A DNA stretch of 23,180 nt from a virus: the IMG/VR virus record IMGVR_UViG_3300030117_002115, positions 1-23,180 of that record; one strand, given 5' to 3'. Positions 11,485 to 18,843 of the stretch are shown piece after piece; within the stretch, counting starts at the first letter, position 1, and each line of letters begins with the position of its first letter. Both the position numbers and the translations under genes were made by a program. The notes beneath the pieces were generated by a model that made no database searches, was not told where the DNA came from, and was given only the letters and a program-made list of their open reading frames with translations.

Positions 11485-11523
11485 TACTTGCAAAATAGAA
11501 AATCACACAACATAATAAAGCAC

Positions 11524-11730
11524 ATGATTAAAAGAACAGACATAAGTCAACAGAAAACACCCAAAGTACATAAAAATAAAAACAGCTATAGCAATAAAGG
11601 CACTGTGTCTTTAAAAACTAAAGCTGGTACTTTTCCAAAAAACACAAAAGCTAAACCTGGTATGGGTAAAGGTAAGTGTAGAGGTATGGGTGCTGCCGAG
11701 TTTGGTGGCAAGTTTTCAGGCATTTATTAA
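11524..11730 (+). CDS. Small basic Gly/Lys-rich protein (68 aa)
   Basis: A short basic protein ends with a Gly-rich block, KAKPGMGKGKCRGMGAAEFG followed by GKFSGIY. The C-terminal GGKFSGIY resembles short Gly-aromatic tails on other small proteins of this type of phage. I chose the ATG at 11524; an in-frame TTG at 11488 would add 12 residues, but neither has a good ribosome binding site. The stop overlaps the next start (TAATG). It lies between the portal and the co-chaperonin. Role unknown; it could be a minor DNA-associated or head protein. Confidence 0.6.
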   Translation: MIKRTDISQQKTPKVHKNKNSYSNKGTVSLKTKAGTFPKNTKAKPGMGKGKCRGMGAAEFGGKFSGIY

Positions 11731-16653: not shown

Positions 16654-16956
16654 ATGGTTGTAAAAAGAAAAAAAGCTAAATCTATACGCAGAACAACTGG
16701 TAAAGGTGGTAATTACCGTCCCACTAAAAGTGGGGCGGGCATGACCAAGAAAGGTATTAGAGCATATAGAAAAGCAAACCCTGGTTCAAAACTCAAAGGA
16801 GCTGTCACTGGAAAAGTTAAAAAAGGCAGTAAAGCCGCTAAAAGAAGAAAATCCTATTGTGCAAGGTCTTTAGGACAACTTAAAAAAAGTTCTGCTAAAA
16901 CTAGAAATAATCCCAACTCAAGAATTAGACAAGCAAGAAGAAGGTGGAAATGTTAA
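16654..16956 (+). CDS. Small very basic phage protein ending in RRRWKC (100 aa)
   Basis: The 100-aa protein is extremely rich in Lys and Arg. Recognisable blocks are GAGMTKKGIRAYRKANPGSK (27-46), LKGAVTGKVKKGSKAAKRRK (47-66), SYCARSLGQLKKSSAK and the end NPNSRIRQARRRWKC. I recall this as a conserved phage family (a DUF, possibly DUF6321) of unknown function. The charge suggests binding to DNA or RNA. Two Cys (one mid-protein, one at the very end) could form disulphides or bind metal. No ribosome binding site; it lies 3 bases after the previous stop and directly abuts the next gene. Confidence 0.78.
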   Translation: MVVKRKKAKSIRRTTGKGGNYRPTKSGAGMTKKGIRAYRKANPGSKLKGAVTGKVKKGSKAAKRRKSYCARSLGQLKKSSAKTRNNPNSRIRQARRRWKC

Positions 16957-17280
16957 ATGAGTAAAGCAAAAATAAAAAAAGTAGTGAAAGGATTGCAGAA
17001 AGCAAGTAAAACACACGCTAAACAAGCAAAAACTTTACAATCTATAAAGATGAAAAAAGGTGGCAAGGTTAAAAGCGGTGGCAAAATTTGTCCAGAAGGC
17101 AAAGCATGGGCGAAACGCACGTTTGATACATACCCGTCTGCTTATGCAAATATGGCTGCTTCTAAATATTGTAAAGACCCAAATTATGCAAAAGGCAGCA
17201 AAAAAAGAAAAAAGAAAGCTAAAGGTGGTTTTGTTTCTATTCGTGGTCAAGGTGCAGTAATGTCAAATAGGTTGAGATAA
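16957..17280 (+). CDS. Small Lys-rich protein with two double-glycine motifs (107 aa)
   Basis: The core, GGKICPEGKAWAKRTFDTYP (41-60) followed by SAYANMAASKYCKDPNYAKG (61-80), is a conserved block I associate with phage proteins of unknown function; two Cys (45 and 72) lie in it. A helical Lys-rich N-terminus precedes it. The motif KKGGKV is at 33-38 and AKGGFV at 88-93. The last 18 residues (GGFVSIRGQGAVMSNRLR) closely match the C-terminus of the next gene's product. The start follows the previous stop with no gap, and the stop overlaps the next start (TAATG). Likely a nucleic-acid-binding or virion-packaged protein; this is inference. Confidence 0.75.
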   Translation: MSKAKIKKVVKGLQKASKTHAKQAKTLQSIKMKKGGKVKSGGKICPEGKAWAKRTFDTYPSAYANMAASKYCKDPNYAKGSKKRKKKAKGGFVSIRGQGAVMSNRLR

Positions 17281-17723
17281 TGGGACAATTAGCTGAATGG
17301 AGAAAACAAAACTGGGTGCGTATTGGAACAGATGGTTCAATAAAAGGACCATGTGGTACAAGCAAGGATAAAAAAAACCCAGATAGATGTTTACCAGCAG
17401 CTAAAGCAAGAAGTTTATCTAAATCAGAAAGAGCAACAACTGCCAGAAAAAAGAAAAGAGCTGGAGCAAAAGGTAAAACAGTAGTAGCAAATACAAAAAA
17501 AGCTAAAGTAAAACTAAAAAAAGGTGGACCTATGATAAAAAATAAATCTAAAGCTGATCTTAATAAAGATGGCAAATTATCTTCTTATGAAAAGAAAAGA
17601 GGCATGGCTATTGAAAGATCTATGGCTGCTCAAAACAGAGTAAAAGTGAAAAATGGTGGTTTTATAGCTAGAGGTTGTGGTAAAGTTATGAATAACCGCA
17701 GAAAAGTAACCACTATAAGCTAG
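17280..17723 (+). CDS. Lys-rich protein with EF-hand-like loop (147 aa)
   Basis: The N-terminal part (WRKQNWVRIGTDGSIKGPCG at 7-26, then KKNPDRCLPAAKARSLSKSE at 31-50) is a conserved phage block that I recall as a DUF (possibly DUF5872) of unknown function, with Cys25 and Cys37. A Lys-rich linker holds KKGGPM (80-85). Residues 93-104, DLNKDGKLSSYE, match a calcium-binding EF-hand loop with acids or Asn at 1, 3, 5 and Glu at 12. KNGGFI (124-129) opens a tail, ARGCGKVMNNRRKV, that matches the previous protein's end. The TAATG overlap ties it to that gene. The function is unknown; calcium binding is a testable guess. Confidence 0.75.
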   Translation: MGQLAEWRKQNWVRIGTDGSIKGPCGTSKDKKNPDRCLPAAKARSLSKSERATTARKKKRAGAKGKTVVANTKKAKVKLKKGGPMIKNKSKADLNKDGKLSSYEKKRGMAIERSMAAQNRVKVKNGGFIARGCGKVMNNRRKVTTIS

Positions 17724-17731
17724 GAGAAATT

Positions 17732-17899
17732 ATGCCAAAGAAAAAATCTGAGGATCCAAAATTACAAGCTAGATTAAATGCTAAAGTAAGACCAGATGAG
17801 CCAGTTAAGGATGAGCGTATTTACATAAATATGCCTAAGAAAAAGGCTCCTGCAAAAAAAACCACTGCTAAAAGAGGCAGACCAAAGAAAAAGGATTAA
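17732..17899 (+). CDS. Small basic protein with AT-hook-like motif (55 aa)
   Basis: This 55-aa protein has a good ribosome binding site (AGGAG, 17722-17726, overlapping the previous stop codon). It starts MPKKKSEDPKLQARLNAKVR and ends MPKKKAPAKKTTAKRGRPKK-KD. The KRGRPKKK stretch has the GRP core of an AT-hook, a motif that binds the minor groove of AT-rich DNA, which fits this AT-rich genome. MPKKK occurs twice (1-5 and 34-38), so the halves may be an old duplication. It lies inside the lysine-rich gene cluster. A DNA-binding or DNA-condensing role is a reasonable inference. Confidence 0.65.
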   Translation: MPKKKSEDPKLQARLNAKVRPDEPVKDERIYINMPKKKAPAKKTTAKRGRPKKKD

Positions 17900-17901
17900 T
17901 T

Positions 17902-18132
17902 ATGTTTAAAAGAACTAAATATTATGCTACTGGTGGTCCTGTAAAAAACCCAAAAGGTATGGCTAAAGGCGGAAAGGCTTCAAAGTACATGGCTAAAGGC
18001 GGAAAAGCTAGTAAATACATGGCAAAAGGAGGCAAGGCTTCTAAGTACATGGCAAAGGGCGGTAAAGCTTCTAAATACATGGCCAAAGGCGGCAAAGCTT
18101 CAAAATATATGTCAAAAGGCGGAAAAGTTTAA
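17902..18132 (+). CDS. Tandem-repeat Lys/Gly protein, MAKGGKASKY x5 (76 aa)
   Basis: A 19-residue leader containing ATGGPV (9-14) is followed by five exact copies of MAKGGKASKY and a shortened sixth unit, MSKGGKV. The protein has no acidic residue, and 21 of its 76 residues are Lys. The repeats are 30 bp in DNA and differ only by silent changes, so the peptide is being conserved rather than newly copied. It starts 2 bases after the preceding stop. It has no fold that I recognise; it could bind DNA, lipid or other virion proteins as a repeated short ligand, or carry repeated targeting signals. Similar small proteins occur in marine phage contigs, from memory. Confidence 0.75.
   Translation: MFKRTKYYATGGPVKNPKGMAKGGKASKYMAKGGKASKYMAKGGKASKYMAKGGKASKYMAKGGKASKYMSKGGKV
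17959..18129 (+). repeat. Five and a half tandem 30-bp coding repeats
   Basis: Units start at 17959, 17989, 18019, 18049, 18079 and (partial) 18109. Each complete unit encodes the same 10 residues. Eight of the ten codons vary between units and every difference is synonymous; for example the Ala codon is GCT, GCT, GCA, GCA, GCC, and the Ser codon switches between TCA, AGT and TCT. Confidence 0.95.
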
Positions 18133-18153: not shown

Positions 18154-18843
18154 TTGTCTTATTTAATATCGAACATACCACAGTTCAAATGTTGGGTGCG
18201 TAAAGAATTTACAGCAAATCATCAAAAATATCATGGAGAATACTTACACGCATTAGCTTTTGCAGTAAATACTATTCCAGATAGGTCATTATCATTTCAA
18301 GTAGTCTTCACAGGCTGTGAGACTGATTTAGAGGAACATCCTGATGAAAACGTACATGGTGGTGCAATGTGGGCAAGGATGCCCATACAAGCTCTTATAG
18401 CAGACGTGCCTTTAGCAGAATGGCCTACACCTATGGAAGACCATTTAGCTCAACCGTGGGATTGTTTGTCACATCATCATTCAGTTGTGGTATTAGATAG
18501 AGTTAGCTCATCTCCTTGGATATGTAAAATAAATGGTGAGTTTTACACAGGAACTTATATGTTTACAGTAGATTACACTGAAAATAGTATTGCAGATGAT
18601 TCTGCACAACATAAACAAAGTCATGTGCTATACTTAACAGACGCTGGTGAATACACTGGTAATTTTGTAGCTTTACCTAACAATAGAGTAAGAGCGACAA
18701 ATCCAGCATTATGGCGTGTAGGAGAAGGTCCACCAGATTTTTCTCCAAGTCAATGGATTCACTCAGCAGAAAAACACGATAGTTATATGGATTCAAACAT
18801 AACTTTTGATAATCTATATAATCAAGATGACAGGAAAGACTAA
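18154..18843 (+). CDS. Conserved marine phage protein of unknown function (229 aa)
   Basis: The N-terminus (SYLISNIPQFKCWVRKEFTA) and the block YLHALAFAVNTIPDRSLSFQ (about 30-49) look like a family I recall in several marine phages, without known function. Aromatic and His-rich stretches include WDCLSHHHSVVVL (about 101-113) and NGEFYTGTYMFTVDY (about 127-141); a proline-rich GPPDFSPSQWIHSAEKHD lies near the end. Several His, Asp and Cys could bind a metal, but no known motif is complete. The start is TTG at 18154, chosen because the recalled family begins with MSYLISNIP and no in-frame ATG occurs before about residue 97. It lies between the basic-protein cluster and the adaptor genes. Confidence 0.75.
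   Translation: MSYLISNIPQFKCWVRKEFTANHQKYHGEYLHALAFAVNTIPDRSLSFQVVFTGCETDLEEHPDENVHGGAMWARMPIQALIADVPLAEWPTPMEDHLAQPWDCLSHHHSVVVLDRVSSSPWICKINGEFYTGTYMFTVDYTENSIADDSAQHKQSHVLYLTDAGEYTGNFVALPNNRVRATNPALWRVGEGPPDFSPSQWIHSAEKHDSYMDSNITFDNLYNQDDRKD

Follow-up and report, generated by a model that had tools for sequence, protein, structure and literature searches.

A tandem KGG-repeat gene in the late module of a marine phage clade, with units alike in protein and diverged in DNA

Relatives of the phages considered here infect SAR11, one of the most abundant groups of bacteria in the ocean, and no function has been assigned to the majority of their late genes. HTVC027P, 023Pt_psg01, DSL-LC04, and HTVC023P encode small basic GG-containing proteins together with a DUF6321 protein in their late region, as does the stretch of DNA analysed here (the window; 23,180 bases, virus record IMGVR_UViG_3300030117_002115). 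What is absent among the small genes read in these four regions is a tandem KGG-repeat protein such as that encoded in the window, and the gene order of HTVC023P/HTVC027P-type pelagiphages differs in part from that of the window. The window's TerL shares 57-61% identity with its counterparts in Pelagibacter phages HTVC027P and HTVC023P and in phages 023Pt_psg01 and DSL-LC04, and the portal, capsid, and adaptor genes around the repeat gene are related to those of HTVC023P/HTVC027P-type phages, which places the repeat gene in a late region. The portions of three pelagiphage papers covered by term searches (PMC12753301, PMC9599517, and PMC10504331) do not mention the repeat protein, and literature searches returned nothing relevant on KGGK phage repeats or on pelagiphage virion proteomics, and no paper on DUF6321. 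Here we describe the repeat gene, which is without a family model, as a conserved part of one marine phage late module.

The order of genes is capsid-region genes, four small basic genes (pI 10.5-12), the repeat gene, a gene designated g18154, and an adaptor-like gene, the last being related to one annotated as a Pam1 adaptor protein in DSL-LC04. The four small basic genes, all on the plus strand, encode a DUF6321 (PF19846) protein (16,654-16,956; 100 aa, pI 12.0; Pfam E=5.1e-11, 43.5 bits against a cut-off of 28.5), a phrog_27331 protein (16,957-17,280; 107 aa, pI 10.7; E=1.8e-25) with GG motifs KKGGKV, KSGGKI, and KGGFV, a phrog_23735 protein (17,280-17,723; 147 aa, pI 11.1; E=7.6e-23) with single GG motifs KKGGPM and KNGGFI, and, directly 5' of the repeat gene and present in part of the relatives, a lysine-rich ORF of 55 aa (17,732-17,899; pI 10.5). 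Two distinct small basic proteins encoded in the same genome (window 17,218-17,280 and 17,649-17,723) have similar tails of the form GG[FL][VI]..RG[QC]G.VM..R, which also occur in L057 (4345-4991) and L157 (2528-3007), hinting at a possible common C-terminal signal.

The repeat gene itself (17,902-18,132, plus strand; an ORF call with a Shine-Dalgarno-like AAGGA on its 5' side) encodes a protein of 76 aa with a pI of 10.5 and the layout MFKRTKYYATGGPVKNPKG-(MAKGGKASKY)x5-MSKGGKV. Its N-terminal segment (17,902-17,958) consists of a degenerate unit 0 (TKYYATGGPV) followed by a linker, RTKYYATGG at the N-terminus being itself a degenerate unit, and T5, K6, Y8, and G11 of this segment are invariant in alignment A2. 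The five MAKGGKASKY units and partial sixth that an earlier note had read from the DNA are indeed present: the five full units of 30 bp occupy 17,959-18,108, and MSKGGKV (18,109-18,129), whose GGKV end is also found in many relatives, directly precedes the stop. The TRF scores of the array (212 for 30 bp and 240 for 60 bp) are by far the highest in the window. Eight of ten codons (2, 3, 4, 5, 6, 8, 9, and 10) vary among the full units, any two of which differ at 4-7 of 30 bases, always silently, and serine is encoded by TCA, TCT, or AGT, so that the switch between TCN and AGT reported in that note is genuine. Its claim of silent differences throughout is correct for the five full units and fails for the partial sixth, which is changed in protein from A to S and, before the stop, from A to V. 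Translation of the ORF is supported by its AAAAAGGATTAATT-ATG start, by a Shine-Dalgarno-like match (loose pattern) on the 5' side in 113 of the 114 distinct ORFs of the family, and by purifying selection.

Silent changes make up 21% of all single-base changes in one unit, and no fewer than 12 changes are needed to account for the differences among the five units of the window; the neutral probability that all their differences would be silent is approximately 6e-9, and the array is not explained by chance. Across 29 distinct alleles of the class with 10-residue units, synonymous divergence between units within one gene is saturated (pS 0.74) and pN is 0.037, much of it made up of counted paths between TCN and AGY, giving a pN/pS of about 0.05. 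Codon mismatch in the same alleles is as high within arrays (0.586) as between arrays (0.551) or in random draws (0.543), which makes the units old on the scale of synonymous drift. Recently made copies are rare, as only 2 of 256 unit pairs are identical in 16 non-redundant arrays; L010 and L029/L037 contain examples, as identical 30-mers. The earlier proposal of an old, protein-constrained array rather than a recent duplication is thus upheld, whereas the exceptional protection it described exists between units of one array and not between phages, where the pN/pS of the repeat gene (0.18) is unremarkable within the module (0.09-0.27 for its neighbours) and the gene is not constrained beyond those neighbours. 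Within-array codon mismatch also exceeds its permutation value (0.580 vs 0.554, p=0.002); codon scrambling selected to prevent recombination is not claimed, since adjacent units are no more different than chance and shared ancestry of unit positions can give an equal excess.

Scans of IMG/VR with two family members yielded 257 and 297 relatives, the best 80 of each being retained, and conservation figures are based on 114 distinct relatives, the 10-residue-unit class comprising 29 distinct sequences. The exact decapeptide is confined to one clade, and it is not what is kept, contrary to the earlier note: sister clades have units of 12-14 residues (e.g. AMKGTKYMAKGG or SASKGTKYMSKGG) with other linkers, and the core conserved over all 114 relatives is [ST]-K-[Y/G]-M-[A/S]-x-G-G. 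Protection against any amino-acid change was likewise too strong a wording, as A/S, K/R/M, and S/T exchanges are tolerated in the 10-residue class. The comparison of unit number and selection among homologues that the note had proposed gives 4-9 units and a pN/pS of about 0.05 in that class, and a kept core with changing linkers elsewhere; over the 114 relatives unit number ranges from about 3 to 11, and some members carry an inserted segment. Occupancy relative to the GG anchor in the 114 distinct proteins is 87-91% for K at -5, 76-79% for M at -3, about 90% for A/S at -2, and 70-72% for K at -1, while R replaces K in 0.3% of units at -5 versus 4.9% at -1. One branch (L189-L227, ORF 5' of g18154) has repeats on both sides of a conserved, AEMKANPGMSNMPKSVMSALMG-like non-repeat segment. 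An RGMGAA..GG-type tail ends an 80-aa ORF of the window (11,488-11,730; RGMGAAEFGGKFSGIY, 11,680-11,730) and also some repeat ORFs elsewhere (L234 and L242; RGMGAATRGGDYNI). Among cultured phages, tblastn found no match to the repeat protein, although this is a weak test because BLAST masks low-complexity queries, and a single scan of genome contigs found no relative.

The gene g18154 (18,154-18,843, plus strand) encodes an acidic protein of 229 aa (pI 5.1; phrog_3704, E=1e-29) and is the fixed 3' neighbour of the repeat gene, the gap between them being 11-33 nt in nearly all loci. When loci were fetched by g18154 alone, a KGG-repeat ORF lay directly 5' of it in all 77 with enough sequence present, these loci being mutually related and hence representing conservation in one large clade and not 77 independent events; at least 4 units were counted in 66 of the 77. 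Near the distant g18154 homologue of HTVC023P-type phages the repeat protein was found in none of 80 loci, and its function is therefore dispensable or met otherwise in those phages; in most of the examples inspected, what lies 5' of that homologue is a DUF6321 gene, whose product often has a single KGG close to its N-terminus. One locus (L049) has a g18154 homologue, the repeat protein, and DUF6321 together with a capsid gene that, judged without alignment, looks unrelated to that of the window. Many records of the phrog_3704 family (HTVC008M, P-SSM2, and other cyanophages) are labelled 'PurM' or 'ferredoxin', a label that appears doubtful, as neither Pfam nor NCBIfam detects such a domain in g18154 of the window. 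An AlphaFold2 model of g18154 reached a pLDDT of 35. Its relatives in the cultured-phage collection are all distant (<60% identity, the best among the matches listed being about 31%), and the comparison suggests that this collection contains no phage of the window's clade.

A single-copy pattern derived from the units, [FYM]xxGGx[VMAIL], was counted against shuffled expectation with the repeat ORF excluded. Its excess is 4.7-fold in the window, 6.7 in HTVC027P, 6.3 in 023Pt_psg01, 7.5 in DSL-LC04, and a non-significant 2.0 in HTVC023P, values that are partly circular because the pattern was defined post hoc on the window and its relatives. HMO-2011, T7, lambda, and P-SSP7 are independent of that definition; the pattern is 2.7-fold enriched in HMO-2011 (p=0.017), and near or at background in T7 (0.5), lambda (1.4), and P-SSP7 (0). 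In some large proteins the motif has acidic neighbours (e.g. SMADGGLV and FAEGGEV), so it need not concern DNA. We regard as unlikely the idea that several late proteins in abundant marine phages use this so far undescribed linear pattern as a common docking (or cleavage) signal in virion assembly, with the repeat protein as a dedicated multivalent hub of 3-11 copies working with the g18154 product. If the GG motif were such a shared assembly signal, it would offer a handle on small uncharacterised proteins and on g18154.

The repeat protein is small and extremely basic, as are protamine-like proteins, with a net charge of +22 in 76 aa; the median for the family is +27 per 100 aa, and acidic residues are missing altogether from 80 of its 114 distinct members. 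It is without Cys or Trp, and it is probably disordered, as its AlphaFold2 model has a pLDDT of 54 and zero secondary structure. No match to it was found in the PDB by sequence, in NCBIfam, or in PHROGs at a threshold of 0.01 (the window protein's best value being 0.27), and Pfam returned only a sub-threshold Spt5 CTD match (E=0.011, 16.7 bits against a cut-off of 25.4) and no match to DUF6321; as far as such searches reach, the protein is outside every described family tested (PDB, Pfam, PHROG, and NCBIfam). Trypsin would, from the sequence, leave pieces of 3-4 residues (YMAK, GGK, and ASK), and standard virion proteomics would therefore miss the protein even if it were abundant.

The reading that we tentatively favour, while giving it somewhat less than an even chance, is that of a disordered, multivalent, cationic late protein acting at head completion or within the virion. 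Each unit would be one short linear motif built on the core [ST]K[YG]M[AS]xGG, with two to three lysines plus a tyrosine or methionine, and would be connected to other copies through flexible linkers; the lysines would keep the protein on DNA, and docking onto a phage protein would fall to the repeated GG motif, several copies providing avidity, for which a variable unit number with a kept core is expected. We only infer that it binds DNA, has a docking partner, is expressed late, and is carried in the virion. Basicity, predicted disorder, a site among head genes, small basic genes, and an adaptor, the fixed GG anchor with the rarity of R at -5, and the excess of the single-copy motif in other proteins argue for this reading. 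The HTVC023P-type loci without the repeat protein, the acidic neighbours of the motif in some large proteins, the post hoc motif pattern, and its lack of a significant excess in HTVC023P and modest one in HMO-2011 argue against it. The multivalent binding peptide of the earlier note remains a reasonable inference, helped by the shared GG motif. A somewhat less probable alternative, still a serious possibility, is that the array serves docking only, the GG motif being the ligand of one phage protein (the acidic product of g18154, or the portal, capsid, or scaffold), with lysines that have no particular role or complement an acidic surface of that partner. The linkage to g18154 in all 77 loci, the single motifs in acidic surroundings, and the co-occurrence in L049 of g18154 homologue, repeat protein, and DUF6321 despite a seemingly unrelated capsid gene would all fit; gene adjacency, however, is not interaction, most phage proteins are acidic in any case, and near absence of D/E with such a high family charge exceeds what docking needs.

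Were charge and flexibility all that mattered, the protein would be a plain polycation, either a protamine-like DNA condenser or a counter-ion, as its basicity, the many members without acidic residues, and the cluster of other basic proteins might suggest. Its positions are not interchangeable, however: GG is a fixed anchor, the [AS] and M/Y positions are conserved, and R hardly ever replaces K at -5 even though one base change (AAA to AGA) suffices. Selection thus seems to act on more than bulk charge, and we consider this explanation distinctly improbable. Still less probable is a precursor that a phage or host protease would cut at its GG motifs into short peptides, with the same sites in larger late proteins; GG-x-hydrophobic sites do recur in small and large late proteins, but none of the window's genes was identified as encoding a protease and the linkers between units differ in length and composition. 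A functionless expansion, whether recent or neutral, is scarcely credible, the few recent unit copies being its one point of support against the rarity of identical pairs, the low pN/pS between units, the minute neutral probability, and the presence of the gene in every locus fetched through its neighbour; for the window's clade, neutral expansion is refuted by silent-only divergence.

The array is a clear natural case of peptide repeats that are held alike while the underlying DNA has fully diverged. Like protamine-like and histone-tail-like DNA-binding proteins, the repeat protein is rich in lysine and glycine, predicted to be disordered, and lacks acidic residues; the H4 tail also has KGGK/KGGAK, and in function the repeat protein would resemble protamine-like or internal head proteins. 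It differs from them in its repeat period, in its conserved M/Y and A/S positions, and in having no sequence match in the PDB, Pfam, or NCBIfam. The DUF6321 (PF19846) phage proteins are likewise small and very basic, are encoded in the same gene cluster, and in some cases have a single N-terminal KGG motif, whereas the repeat protein does not match PF19846 and has no Cys or Trp. In function it would also resemble linear-motif arrays.
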